Of a DNA stretch of 64,000 bases, positions 48,511 to 54,363 are shown in pieces. Location: assembly GCA_001628485.1 (NCBI GenBank), contig LURR01000012.1, forward strand, positions 82,563-146,562, written 5' to 3'. Positions within the stretch are counted from its first letter, which is position 1. Each line of letters opens with the position of its first letter. This DNA comes from Marine group II euryarchaeote REDSEA-S11_B3N4. GTDB lineage: Archaea; Thermoplasmatota; Poseidoniia; Poseidoniales; Thalassarchaeaceae. The notes beneath the pieces were generated by a model that was not told where the DNA came from, did no database searches, and saw nothing but the letters and a program-made list of their open reading frames with translations. The position numbers and the translations under genes were made by a program.

Positions 48511-49587
48511 CTACCTTTCTAGATAGGCTTGGATACCGGGTACATTTGAAACTGCTTCTGAGTAAGTTCCCAGATGCTCTTCCCCAGTGCTAGCTACCAT
48601 TCCAGCCGTGTTGAGGACGTCGTTCAGGATTTCACGCCCCTCGCTATCGTCATCAAGTGCTAGCAGAGCCTCTTGAATTACCAGCATAGTCTCGTCGTCC
48701 ATACTTGCTGGGTCATACATTACCGGGTGACTGGGTGCCTGTCCAAAAGAGGGTAGCATGACAATCTCATCACGCTCCAAGCACCAGTCTGGACCATCGG
48801 CCACACCATCCTCATTCTCATCGCAATATAGCCGATATGCCGTGTCCTTCACTAGAGCCACGTCTCCGTGCCCAGTCATCATGCACTTCATTGCCCCGCT
48901 GTATCCGGAGTATTGTGTGCCACCCTCAGGGATTTCAGAGTCCGCATGGAAGAAAGTCGTCACAGTGGCTCTCAACGATTCGATCTCGTTTGGATCGCCT
49001 TGCACTTCTGCGTATCCGTTTCCAATCAGGTAACCCATGGGAATGAGCATCCCAGCGCTCTTCAACCAGCCAGTATGGCATGACTTCTTTCCTTGCATAA
49101 GTGCAAATGGATCGGTATCGGGGTCGTCATCCAGGTGTGCTGCTGCAATCTCTGAATCAGCTCTAACCCATGCTGCTGCGTTGTAGAATACCCTTCCGTC
49201 AGGCTTCTTCTCAACGGCTACTACATCCAGATCGTAAACCTGGTAACCCAACCATCCTGCAGCCCCGTCCACCATGGCGATCTCAGCATTTCCATTGGCG
49301 ACGGCCTCTATCGCGGCAACCTCGTCCGATACGGGATAGACCACTACCTTCATCCCTGTCAGTTCGCTTAACTTGTCTGCCATCTCCTGGGGATTCGCTT
49401 CCCAGAAAAGGTATGTATCCTTGACTTCGTAAGCTATTCTTACGCAGTCCTCGTCATCTCCGCATTCGTCATAGTTCACCGTGAACAATGCCCACAAAAC
49501 TGCAGCCGAGAGAATAATTCCGGCTATTGCAATTGGCACAGTCCTGCCCTGTGAAGCATCCCTAATGCTATTCGCAATCGTGCTCAT
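48511..49587 (-). CDS. Transferrin-like periplasmic/exported substrate-binding protein of an ABC importer (PhnD-like annotation expected)
   Basis: N-terminal TM anchor; [76 protein letters not shown]; divergent to ABC ATPase/permease. Confidence 0.78.
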   Translation of the reverse strand: [358 protein letters not shown]

Positions 49588-49617: not shown

Positions 49618-49633
49618 TTTAGGGCTACCTAAA
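49618..49633. promoter_or_regulatory. Palindromic operator TTTAGG-GCTA-CCTAAA in the divergent promoter of the transferrin-like/ABC genes
   Basis: Perfect 6-bp inverted half-sites with 4-bp spacer; on the minus strand it abuts TATA-like AAATTTATC; same architecture at 53704. Confidence 0.72.
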
Positions 49634-49634
49634 C

Positions 49635-50351
49635 ATGACTAAACATGAAAAGAGGAATCACGTCCCCAAGCACGTGTCAGAGGTAGTTAGGATTAGGAAC
49701 CTAGAAGTTGGTTTTCAAAAACAACCTCTACTCTCCATAGAAAGTCTGATTGTAAATTCCGGCGAGGTACTGGCAATTACAGGACCGTCCGGAATAGGAA
49801 AGACCTCGTTACTCAAAACGATCGCAGGCCTTCTGACACCACTATCCGGATTAGTTCAGGTTTGCGAGGCTACATCTCCGCAGAAGCCACCGAGAGGTAC
49901 GATTGGATATATCCCTCAGAAGCTGGGACTGGTCAGGCACTCGAGCGTTTGGGCCAATGTAATGCTAGGCTCTAGAGCAGGGAACACAAAATCACACTCT
50001 AGAGAACAGTCAAACAATGCAATTCTGGCAATGGGGTTGGAAGAAAAAAGAAATGAACCAATCAAAAGGCTCTCCGGGGGGCAACAGAGGCGAGTTGCGA
50101 TAGCCAGGACTCTGGCACAGCGTCCCAAGCTAATATTGGCAGATGAATTTCTGAGCGAACTAGATGAAGAAACATCTGATAGAGTGGTAGAGGCAGTGAT
50201 GCAATACGTCTCATCAAGCGGCGCTGCAATGGTTCTGGTTGAACACGACATCTCTAGAGCGCGGGAGATCTCTGATAGACTTCTAGTCATAGACGATGGA
50301 CGTCTGAACCCCTTCATCACAGATACTTCGATCATGGAGGTGAGATCTTGA
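49635..50351 (+). CDS. ABC transporter ATP-binding protein (PhnC-like)
   Basis: Walker A GPSGIGKTS, LSGGQQRRVAIARTLAQRPKLILADE, VEHD switch. Confidence 0.93.
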   Translation: MTKHEKRNHVPKHVSEVVRIRNLEVGFQKQPLLSIESLIVNSGEVLAITGPSGIGKTSLLKTIAGLLTPLSGLVQVCEATSPQKPPRGTIGYIPQKLGLVRHSSVWANVMLGSRAGNTKSHSREQSNNAILAMGLEEKRNEPIKRLSGGQQRRVAIARTLAQRPKLILADEFLSELDEETSDRVVEAVMQYVSSSGAAMVLVEHDISRAREISDRLLVIDDGRLNPFITDTSIMEVRS

Positions 50352-51274
50352 TCAGGATCAATAGAGAACTGAGGGAGCTGCTAGTTTCAGTTACCGTCCT
50401 GATTCTTGGATTCTGGATAATCCTCACTCTCACGTCAGGTCTTGTCTGGGACTGGAATGGATGGAGGGTTATCGAACCCCAGTCTTATCCTCCGTGCGAG
50501 GCAAACATGTTCCTTCAGTTCACATGCTCCACTGCTTGGATTGGGATGGTTGAAACGATAAAGATAGCAATTCTTGCAACCTTCTTCGGGATGATACTCT
50601 CTCTACCGATGGGACTCTTGAGTTCAAGGAATCTATTCCCCCAGTACGTTACCTATCCTTCTAGGGCCGTTGTCTCAGCCTGTCGAAGCCTTCCAAGTCT
50701 GATTTGGGCGATTATCTTCGTGATAATTGTCGGATTGGGGCCAACAGCAGGAATATTAGCAATGACGATCTACACAGTCGGATATCTGGGCAAGATGCAG
50801 TATGAGGCGATAGAGGGGATGAACAGCGCACCTCTGGAGGCTGCCAACGCAATGGGGCTCACGAAGGCAGAAGTATCATTCTGGGTCGTTATCCCAGAAA
50901 CTGCAAACCACCTAATAGCTCAGATGATTTTCATGTTTGAATACAATGTCAGGTCAGGGACCGTTATTGGGATAGTCGGAGCCGGTGGAATTGGGTACTA
51001 CATCAATCTCTATCTGAAGTTCCTACAATACGAAAGAGTTGCAGCGTATCTGCTAATCATATTCCTGGTGGTTTTGCTTATCGATTTAGTCTCCATCTAC
51101 CTTCGCTCATTCTTCACAGACGAGTCCGAGAATACCAAGCCAACCTGGTCAGGCGTGTTCCTCCCCCCGAAAGATGATCCACCAGAAGTAGTCAATATTC
51201 GAGACCGGATTGATCCGGTCACCGGCGTCAAGATGGGCGAGGATAATCAGGCTAGTAATCCGCAACAATCCTGA
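50348..51274 (+). CDS. ABC transporter permease (PhnE-like)
   Basis: Multi-TM; MQYEAIEGMNSAPLEAANAMGLTKAEVSFWVVIPETANHL; overlaps ATPase stop. Confidence 0.9.
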   Translation: MIRINRELRELLVSVTVLILGFWIILTLTSGLVWDWNGWRVIEPQSYPPCEANMFLQFTCSTAWIGMVETIKIAILATFFGMILSLPMGLLSSRNLFPQYVTYPSRAVVSACRSLPSLIWAIIFVIIVGLGPTAGILAMTIYTVGYLGKMQYEAIEGMNSAPLEAANAMGLTKAEVSFWVVIPETANHLIAQMIFMFEYNVRSGTVIGIVGAGGIGYYINLYLKFLQYERVAAYLLIIFLVVLLIDLVSIYLRSFFTDESENTKPTWSGVFLPPKDDPPEVVNIRDRIDPVTGVKMGEDNQASNPQQS

Positions 51275-51473
51275 TTGCTCCGCCATCATAGAATATCTGA
51301 ATGTGGTCCTTGGCCTTGATCGTCAGAGCCGCCAATGCCTCGTAGACTTCCTTTTCTTGAACGTTGAATGCGTCTGCTGCTCTCTTTGTAGACCAGGCTA
51401 CTTCAACGAAGTCTGATGCAGAAATCCACTTCAGAAGCCTCGCCTCGAAATCCGTTAAATCGACTAGTGCCAT
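51252..51473 (-). CDS. Small winged-helix-like protein
   Basis: FEARLLKWISASDFVEVAWSTKRAADAFNVQEKEVYEALAAL; converges on permease. Confidence 0.5.
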   Translation of the reverse strand: MALVDLTDFEARLLKWISASDFVEVAWSTKRAADAFNVQEKEVYEALAALTIKAKDHIQIFYDGGAIRIVADY

Positions 51474-51593: not shown

Positions 51594-53690
51594 GTGCCTA
51601 GAAGCGAAAACGCTCTTCGAACTATACTCTGTGTGCTAATGTTGCTGCTCGTATTAGTTTCCGGTTGCCTGGACAACACTTCGAACGAAACAGATACAGA
51701 AGCAGTTGATCAAGAGAATGAGAGAGATGAAATCCCCCTTTCAGTCGCTTTCATCGTGGATCAGCAGTTTTTCGGAACAGAAAATGATCCTTCCTACATG
51801 GCACAGAAATTCTCAGAAGAGACAATATTCGAAATTACCCCATATCCCGTAGAATCCGAAGAAGCGATGATTGAGTCACTCAGGTTTGGCCATGTTGACC
51901 TTGCAATGATGGATGCAGCATCATCCTGGATGAGTTGGAAGAATTACGGATTAGAAGCACTTCTCGCCGACGAAGAGAATTATGGAAGAACATACTACAA
52001 TTCCAATGCATGGGTCAAATCAGACAGCGATATCGCAACTTACCAAATCGATGATGATCCGTTGACAGATCCATTTTCACTCTTCGAGGGTAAGAAAACC
52101 TGTCACACGGGATGGTTTGACTCCGTGGGGATGCTTCTTCCTATGGGGTTCTTGCTCGGTCTTGGATACGCAAATGTAGCTGGAAACCCAAACGACGTGG
52201 AGTCATTGTTGTTCACAATTCAGGAGTTCTTTGACGACGAACCAACTATTCCTGAGGCCGGTACAAAGTACTACGGCTACTCAGGAGCTCTTAGGTGCCT
52301 CTCAGACGGAACAGGCGACATAGCATTTCTCCAGGACTCCTCAGTGGAGGATTACTGTCCAGATGACGACTCGATAAGGCCCTCGTGGTGTCTCGAGGAG
52401 GATGAATACACCATGCTCCCCACATTCGGCAGGTCCCCCAGTAACGCCCTGATGTATAATCCAAGTTTTCTTGACTCGGAAGTTTCAGAAAGAATTTCCA
52501 AAGAACTGGTCGATCTGAGTGGAATAAATGAAATGGACCAGACCCTAAGCTCACTATTCGGAACCCCCGGTTTCGTCCCCACCACATCCCAACAGCACTT
52601 GGAGGGATACTCATCCTTAGTCTATAACATCCCAGGAATGCAGGCATATTTCGAGGATCCAAGTAATACTGGACAGGTAAATCTCAGTGTACAAGAAATC
52701 AATATCGGCGTAGTAGGACCTCTTTCAAACTCTACATCCTCATCTTTCGGATTCCTTGCCGACTCAATAAGCAACGATATCGGCATAGGCGTGAATATTT
52801 CCGAATTTGAAAATCACTTCAGTCTAGTAGAAAATTTATCCAATGGAGTCGTAAATATCGCAATTACAGATGCGATTCCCTCTTGGAAGGCATGGAAGCA
52901 CGATGGAATGTCCGTATTGGCATCATTGTTGGATGAACAAGAGAAGGTCTTCTCGGACTCATTCACCATAGTGAGATCCGATAGCGAATTTACAAATTCC
53001 ACCGATCCTCTTTCTTTGATGGATGGAATTTCTCCCTGCTTCTCGGGAAGAGACAATCCAAGTACACTATTGGTTGCAGGAAGCTTGGTCGGAAGGGGCC
53101 TAACAACCCATCTAGGAGATTTGCAAAATTCTTCAATCCCTGAGATTATCCATTCACTATTCAATTCATCTTACTCTTTCCCAGAAGAAAACTCAGAATT
53201 CCACGGTACCAATGGGGCCCTTAGATGCCTTTCTCATGGAGGGGGGGATATTGCGTTTGTAGAAGGCAATGAACAGGAGATATTCTGTCAGGATGGCTCA
53301 CAACCAAGTGATGAAAATTGGTGCTTAGATAGCGCAGATTATTCCTTGCTTCCACCCATAGGTTCTCTGCCGTATAAATCTGTAATTTACGATCCTTCAG
53401 TCTTGGACATGGTTTCTCGCACAGCTGTCCTAAACTCCTTGCTATCTCTGAACTACGAAATGTTCCTGGACAATTTCACAACTATGGGAAGGGAGTATAC
53501 CGGATGCTATGATATTTCGATCCATAAAATCGACGAGGACTCCCCTAGGGAAGCCTGTGGTTCTGAGATTCTTTCCAATTCACTCTATTCTTCTGGAGTA
53601 TCCAGGGCAACCTCTCAAAGCCTTCTAGGACAAATCTCCGAAATAATCGGCATCCTCCCTGTTCAGCTGATTAACAACTCCTTCACATAA
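51594..53690 (+). CDS. Bilobed transferrin-like lipoprotein (two tandem substrate-binding lobes)
   Basis: GTG start; lipobox LVSGC; lobe 1 FEGKKTCHTGWFDSVGMLLPMG and KYYGYSGALRCLSDGTGDIAFLQD; lobe 2 degenerate counterpart SPCFSGRDNPSTLLVAG and EFHGTNGALRCLSHGGGDIAFVEG. Confidence 0.78.
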   Translation: MPRSENALRTILCVLMLLLVLVSGCLDNTSNETDTEAVDQENERDEIPLSVAFIVDQQFFGTENDPSYMAQKFSEETIFEITPYPVESEEAMIESLRFGHVDLAMMDAASSWMSWKNYGLEALLADEENYGRTYYNSNAWVKSDSDIATYQIDDDPLTDPFSLFEGKKTCHTGWFDSVGMLLPMGFLLGLGYANVAGNPNDVESLLFTIQEFFDDEPTIPEAGTKYYGYSGALRCLSDGTGDIAFLQDSSVEDYCPDDDSIRPSWCLEEDEYTMLPTFGRSPSNALMYNPSFLDSEVSERISKELVDLSGINEMDQTLSSLFGTPGFVPTTSQQHLEGYSSLVYNIPGMQAYFEDPSNTGQVNLSVQEINIGVVGPLSNSTSSSFGFLADSISNDIGIGVNISEFENHFSLVENLSNGVVNIAITDAIPSWKAWKHDGMSVLASLLDEQEKVFSDSFTIVRSDSEFTNSTDPLSLMDGISPCFSGRDNPSTLLVAGSLVGRGLTTHLGDLQNSSIPEIIHSLFNSSYSFPEENSEFHGTNGALRCLSHGGGDIAFVEGNEQEIFCQDGSQPSDENWCLDSADYSLLPPIGSLPYKSVIYDPSVLDMVSRTAVLNSLLSLNYEMFLDNFTTMGREYTGCYDISIHKIDEDSPREACGSEILSNSLYSSGVSRATSQSLLGQISEIIGILPVQLINNSFT

Positions 53691-53719: not shown

Positions 53720-53771
53720 AATTATAAGATACACTTCTAGACGATATTGGGACACTCCAGTAGATGGATAC

Positions 53772-53836
53772 GTTGGCGGGGGGAAGCATCACCCCCAGCA
53801 TCATTTTCGGTTTCCGTAAACCGTCCCCCCGTCAAC
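53772..53836 (+). ncRNA. Candidate structured 5' leader of the flavodoxin mRNA
   Basis: 12-bp helix GTTGGCGGGGGG (53772-53783) / CCCCCCGTCAAC (53825-53836, one G-U) enclosing hairpin CGGTTT-CCGT-AAACCG (53808-53823). Confidence 0.5.
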
Positions 53837-53907
53837 AACTTAAGTTTGTAAGTGAGGAAAATCTGGAGGATACAGTTCCGAGACGAACTCTGACTAGGAG
53901 AGGGGCA

Positions 53908-54363
53908 ATGACCGATCGAAACTTACTCCTGATATTCGGTACCGAGACAGGAAATGCCGAAGAACTCGCAGAAGACGCAGCTCACATGGCGAAAAAATAC
54001 GATCTTAATCCAACAGTAATAGACATGGAGGACATCACGCCAGAAGGAATCTCCGATTCCAAGAGGCTGATTGTAATTTGTAGCACATGGGGGGAAGGTG
54101 AACAACCCGTAAATGCCCAAGACCTGTATGATGCTGTCTCAGAATCAGAAGATGGCTGCATGATTGGAGTAAATTTCGCAGTCCTCGCACTAGGAGACAC
54201 TGCATTCGAATTCTTCTGCGAATCAGGAAAGGAATGGGACTCTGTACTGGAAGAGAAAGGTGGAAAAAGAACCAACAAAAGAATAGATTGCGACACAGAT
54301 TACGACGATTATGCAGAGGAATGGATCGAGGAAACACTCTCATTGATGAAAGACATCGCATAG
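53908..54363 (+). CDS. Flavodoxin-family protein
   Basis: LLLIFGTETGNAEELAEDAAHMAKK, STWGEGEQPVNAQDLYDAV, VLALGDTAFEFFCESGKEWDSVLEEKG; start at ATG 53908 after AGGAG. Confidence 0.9.
   Translation: MTDRNLLLIFGTETGNAEELAEDAAHMAKKYDLNPTVIDMEDITPEGISDSKRLIVICSTWGEGEQPVNAQDLYDAVSESEDGCMIGVNFAVLALGDTAFEFFCESGKEWDSVLEEKGGKRTNKRIDCDTDYDDYAEEWIEETLSLMKDIA

Follow-up and report, generated by a model that had tools for sequence, protein, structure and literature searches.

Transferrin is usually presented as an animal invention, with some algal cases, and the ferric-binding proteins of prokaryotes are presented as look-alikes in fold. FbpA, the 'bacterial transferrin', delivers Fe(III) to an ABC importer, which is also the role that we propose for SBP1, the archaeal protein described here; FbpA resembles transferrin by fold only, whereas SBP1 does so at the level of sequence. 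SBP1 comes from the Poseidoniales/Marine Group II, archaea that are abundant in the surface ocean and uncultured. Its sequence match is to the family of the animal transferrins (serum transferrin, lactoferrin, ovotransferrin and melanotransferrin; PF00405), with which it has in common the four Fe ligands, T120, the C118/C194 cysteines and the GKKSCHTG and GYSGA motifs; the archaeal family also has two-lobed members, apparently from a separate duplication. In contrast to the animal proteins, SBP1 has Lys in place of Arg124, is without the other disulfides, and is a membrane-anchored ABC binding protein from an archaeon. With PhnD and the oxyanion-binding proteins AioX and ArrX (PF12974), SBP1 shares fold, size, ABC partners of the PhnC/PhnE type and a PF12974 score above the cut-off, while PhnD has neither the Asp/Tyr/Tyr/His set nor the cysteine pair and stays below the transferrin cut-off.

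Two further systems bear on the comparison. Phytotransferrin (ISIP2a/FEA1) is a surface protein for iron acquisition in marine organisms and is induced when iron is low (PMC7883536), and a survey of Marine Group II counts phosphonate transport as core (PMC6336850). In the literature searched, which left out most subscription journals, we found no account of archaeal transferrins, although protein databases may already list some of them under Transferrin, since they score above the Pfam cut-off. The novelty lies in the functional and regulatory picture of an archaeal transferrin-family importer.

SBP1 and its importer locus

The features discussed below lie in one window, by which we mean the whole stretch of 64,000 nucleotides that was analysed (Table 1). 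An earlier note on this DNA had read the SBP1 frame as a transferrin-type iron-binding protein of an ABC importer. The open reading frame has exactly the boundaries given there and contains every peptide quoted from it; its strand, which had not been named, is minus.

Table 1. Features of the SBP1 locus, in window coordinates
Feature	Position	Strand	Details
SBP1, single-lobe transferrin-family substrate-binding protein	48511..49587	-	358 aa; read from 49587 to 48511, ATG start; N-terminal membrane anchor; intact predicted Fe ligands
16-bp palindrome TTTAGGGCTACCTAAA, putative DtxR-type iron box	49618..49633		Divergent SBP1/ATPase promoter
ABC transporter ATPase	49635..50351	+	238 aa; PF00005, 6.4e-30
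PhnE-type ABC permease	50348..51274	+	308 aa; TTG start; PF00528, 7.6e-17
SBP2, two-lobed transferrin-family lipoprotein	51594..53690	+	698 aa; GTG start; second family member in the cluster
Second palindrome, core TTAGGGTAACCTAA	53704..53719		Between SBP2 and flavodoxin
Flavodoxin	53764..54363	+	Likely start at internal Met ~53908; PF00258, 1.4e-27

The earlier note had named the lack of a significant match to Transferrin (PF00405) as grounds for dropping its reading; SBP1 matches that family at 63.0 bits (E=3.5e-17, cut-off 20.3), and a two-lobed relative reaches 137.9 bits. None of five annotated PhnD controls reached the Transferrin cut-off, the nearest stopping at 15.4 of 20.3 bits, while the same five scored 134-250 bits against Phosphonate-bd (PF12974), and no PF00405 match was found in any of 14 control genomes. 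In a phmmer search of the PDB with SBP1, the best 60 chains listed were all transferrins or lactoferrins (best 4.2e-19). A profile built from 10 Poseidoniales lobes retrieved bovine lactoferrin at 3.3e-42, in an alignment that runs unbroken across all four Fe ligands. SBP1 also passes the Phosphonate-bd cut-off, and by more (83.9 bits, 1.5e-23, cut-off 27). With two Pfam families matched above their cut-offs, and PF12974 with the higher score, we regard SBP1 as an intermediate and not as a clean transferrin. SBP1 fell below both the NCBIfam PhnD model (24.9 of 261.1 bits) and TIGR01098 (42.5 of 112.05 bits) and had no Pfam match to bacterial solute-binding families.

Pfam and TIGR matches agree with the importer setting described in the earlier note: an ATPase and a PhnE-type permease adjoin SBP1, and the SBP1 and ATPase genes are transcribed divergently from a common promoter region. 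Apart from SBP1 and SBP2, no Phosphonate-bd proteins were found in the genome. SBP1 is followed by a glucose/sorbosone dehydrogenase-like lipoprotein gene (PF07995; 47320-48501 of the window), which is kept beside the SBP1-type gene in 47 of 80 loci. SBP2 is separated from the permease by a 73-aa ORF (51252-51473, minus strand) that is small and winged-helix-like and has no Pfam match.

The permease passes the PhnE model (TIGR01097) by 0.1 bit, at 216.8 against a cut-off of 216.7. This match, PF12974 as the best Pfam match of SBP1 and the phosphonate transport listed for Marine Group II (PMC6336850) would all suit a PhnCDE importer of phosphonate, phosphite or phosphate whose binding protein shares transferrin motifs by chance, as current annotation would say; the permease match and the survey also fit the expectation in the earlier note that the locus would be mis-annotated as phosphonate uptake. 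However, the cut-offs of the two PhnD models are missed widely, and PhnJ, the C-P lyase gene of phosphonate breakdown, was found in none of the 60 Poseidoniales genomes searched. Together with the regulatory setting described below, which is one of an iron-type box and DtxR regulators and not a phosphate context, these results disfavor phosphonate uptake, and we consider it very improbable.

Ligand residues, cysteines and predicted fold

Residues of transferrin are given here in the human numbering (D63, Y95, Y188, H249, T120, R124, C118, C194). The earlier note had aligned the two proteins by hand, placing D107, Y135, Y229 and H287 of SBP1 on the Fe ligands D63, Y95, Y188 and H249, T172 on anion-site T120, and C170/C235 on C118/C194, and we recovered each of these pairings in a profile alignment and in a 53-row multiple alignment. 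In the latter, K176 likewise stands opposite Arg124, a position occupied by Arg in all transferrin lobes used. Across 45 aligned sequences, D107, Y135, T172, K176 and Y229 show no variation, and at least 90% have H287. This near-invariance of the ligands within the family, and their absence as a set from PhnD, also argue against a phosphonate importer. The C170/C235 pair is aligned in every Poseidoniales lobe of the 53-row alignment and is predicted to form a disulfide.

The second proposed disulfide, C255/C269 as the equivalent of C227/C241, did not hold up: the profile sets C269, the WCL cysteine, on C227, and the multiple alignment has no Cys opposite C255. On these two results the match was rejected. 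Family members differ in the distance between C255 and C269 (14 residues in SBP1, 6 in the relative L005), so that the equal 14-residue spacing in SBP1 and transferrin is a coincidence. SBP1 has only six cysteines (C42, C48, C170, C235, C255 and C269), and the remaining disulfides of the vertebrate lobe, C227-C241 included, are absent from it. We therefore limit the claim to membership of the transferrin family and do not speak of a vertebrate-type transferrin; we do not take the further vertebrate disulfides as defining for the family as a whole.

SBP2, which the earlier note missed, is added by the present analysis. In the 53-row alignment its N-lobe retains the Asp, both Tyr and the Thr, with Asn in place of His and Asp in place of Lys, and its C-lobe has a degenerate or lost ligand set; the four-ligand Asp/Tyr/Tyr/His set is thus incomplete in SBP2. 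Its cysteines are retained despite the degenerate metal site. In two-lobed proteins from other genomes both sites are intact. Another paralogue of the SBP2 type with degenerate sites is L151b (L151:6438-8531).

An AlphaFold2 model of SBP1 made from 45 sequences (pLDDT 87.0, pTM 0.79) was compared with the PDB by fold search, in which melanotransferrin (2.3e-14) and serum transferrin lead, interleaved with AioX/ArrX. TM-scores over the target are 0.67-0.75 for AioX/ArrX versus 0.53-0.60 for transferrin lobes. For a model of the two-lobed protein (pLDDT 77.8), the best 50 PDB matches are all transferrins, aligned over both lobes; given TM-scores of only 0.3-0.4 to these transferrins, the lobes are either packed otherwise or their packing is poorly predicted. 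The AioX/ArrX structures among the top fold matches, like the replacement of Arg124 by Lys, would also be compatible with an ABC importer that has a transferrin-type site but carries other cargo, be it Mn or another metal, a metal-oxyanion or an iron-chelate complex. Against such cargo stands the Asp/Tyr/Tyr/His set, the classic hard site for Fe(III).

The palindromic box and the genes behind it

The 14-bp core TTAGGNNNNCCTAA has exactly two sites in the 1.296-Mb genome, both in the SBP1-flavodoxin locus, and is found upstream of nearly all of the first 30 homologues fetched. Upstream of the homologues, 99% conservation of the flanking T and A extends the core to a 16-bp box, TTTAGGNNNNCCTAAA. 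Full upstream sequence was available for 84 homologues; 74 of them have the box, and the ten without it consist of eight SBP2-type paralogues and two genes with mis-set starts. Intact homologues across the whole order are thus preceded by the box. Box loss thus tracks the degenerate two-lobed type, the residue-level check of box-less SBP2-type paralogues having covered L151b and the window's SBP2, both degenerate and the latter with no box in its promoter. The loss in SBP2-type paralogues was perhaps a single event.

The box matches the core of the iron operator of DtxR: the published operator TTAGGTTAGCCTAACCTAA begins TTAGG-4-CCTAA (PMC7762939), and the consensus is given likewise in PMC1382209. 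We inspected 20 regions around box sites in four relatives, the only genomes from which the non-SBP genes of the regulon were drawn. There, the genes after the box encode transferrin-like proteins, an ABC ATPase, flavodoxins, Fea1 lipoproteins (PF07692, up to 9e-28), a glutamyl-tRNA reductase of the HemA type (GlutR) and RNR R2. The box also lies upstream of a fusion of an M28 peptidase with a ZIP metal transporter domain (L067:3916-6183), and L082:1679-3994 is a comparable M28-type gene that also has the box. In 60 genomes, the box had 133 sites versus 63 for a reversed control, about 2:1; individual box sites elsewhere may therefore be due to chance, the box being only about twice as common as the control.

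Fea1, the phytotransferrin family, is separate in Pfam from the family of SBP1, and in relatives it has the same box and often the same neighborhood. Ten Fea1 genes from a family search have the box just upstream, among the matches listed and compared by position. Fea1 lipoproteins of this phytotransferrin type, among them L070:2429-3577, L077:2215-4068, L078:2835-3983 and L083:2732-4003, have the box upstream and occur in 17 of 60 Poseidoniales genomes, the family being already named 'FEA1-related lipoprotein' at NCBI, and in several genomes Fea1 and transferrin-like genes lie on the same contig stretch. The family search found no Fea1 (PF07692) in the window's own genome.

A candidate regulator for the box is widespread, the DtxR DNA-binding domain (PF01325) being present in 59 of 60 Poseidoniales genomes, G000 included. 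No DtxR C-terminal domain was found in the window's own genome, which we attribute to the assembly, since the DtxR gene, with its match to the N-terminal domain, runs off the end of contig 7. In L189, from a relative in the same class, a two-lobed transferrin gene and a DtxR-type regulator are transcribed divergently, three boxes separate them, and a flavodoxin is nearby; in L188 the gene immediately before a transferrin-like gene is of the DtxR type. On a plasmid of Natronococcus occultus, a relative of SBP1 is flanked by a DtxR-type regulator on one side and an ATPase-PhnE pair on the other, and this regulator scores best with an MntR model, though below its cut-off. As far as sequence can tell, the switch of the SBP1 gene looks like the iron-starvation sensing switch of bacteria.

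The case for iron, once drawn from the ligand residues alone, is now independently backed by the DtxR-type box and regulator and by the flavodoxin and Fea1 genes under the box. Flavodoxin is an iron-sparing substitute for ferredoxin. DtxR-family regulators can sense Mn as well, and the MntR-like score of the Natronococcus neighbor would fit an importer of other cargo; however, the iron-starvation markers flavodoxin and Fea1 have the same box, and we judge other cargo unlikely. The ligands, importer, box, regulator and flavodoxin are explained most simply by an iron-repressed Fe(III) ABC importer with a transferrin as its substrate-binding protein, a reading that we consider very probable from the sequence evidence. 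The transferrin-type importer of the earlier note thus survives in its family match and importer setting and gains regulatory support for iron, whereas the clean transferrin and the second disulfide are given up.

In such an importer, the membrane-anchored SBP1 would most likely bind Fe(III) outside the membrane, in the cleft between its two subdomains. An Asp, a His and two Tyr are the predicted protein ligands, and Thr172, Lys176 and the N-terminus of a helix would probably hold a carbonate-like anion. Loaded SBP1 would dock on the PhnE-type permease, and permease and ATPase would carry the iron into the cell. At plentiful iron, a DtxR-family regulator bound to TTTAGGNNNNCCTAAA would most likely repress both the importer and flavodoxin.

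Distribution and descent of the family

A PF00405 match is present in 129 of 146 Poseidoniales genomes, and a phylum-wide draw found further matches in three of six sampled members of the other family of the same class and in three of about 208 other Thermoplasmatota. Outside the Thermoplasmatota, the spread was followed in the best 80 of 278 loci and in a plasmid search. The relative on the Natronococcus plasmid (L170:5839-6863; 35% identity) has no annotation and a broken frame; the Asp ligand and the two cysteines of the C118-C194 pair are missing from it, but the Tyr, Thr, Tyr and His are retained. Among the best 80 of 278 loci, L112 (Rhodobacteraceae), L127 (Pedosphaera) and L150 (Deltaproteobacteria) are Poseidoniales-like loci under bacterial names, and their identities of 50-65% and Poseidoniales-like boxes suggest that they are probably misfiled contigs. 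A viral origin of the SBP1 family was also checked and rejected, as a search of 2.9 million viral contigs found no related protein.

The tree separates PhnD at 100/99 from the transferrins, the Poseidoniales lobes and the haloarchaeal relative, and the transferrin lobes form one clade (100/100). The Poseidoniales lobes fall on one side of a branch at only 83/62, with several long branches, so that transferrins may be either sister to the archaeal family or nested in it. N- and C-lobes of the archaeal proteins group within the archaeal set and those of the animal proteins within the animal set, and the two lobe duplications therefore appear independent. We tentatively suggest, as a possibility at somewhat less than even confidence, that eukaryotic transferrins have their ancestral lineage, or else their closest prokaryotic sister, in the archaeal ABC binding proteins, with transferrin starting out as the iron binder of a prokaryotic PhnD-type importer, later leaving the membrane and doubling to two lobes at least twice, in archaea and in animals.

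An archaeal transferrin recognizable by sequence within an importer is a candidate link between PhnD-type binding proteins and transferrin. If the proposed function is true, Marine Group II would gain an explicit route of iron uptake together with an iron regulon, and the 'phosphonate transport' reported for these archaea would be largely iron transport.
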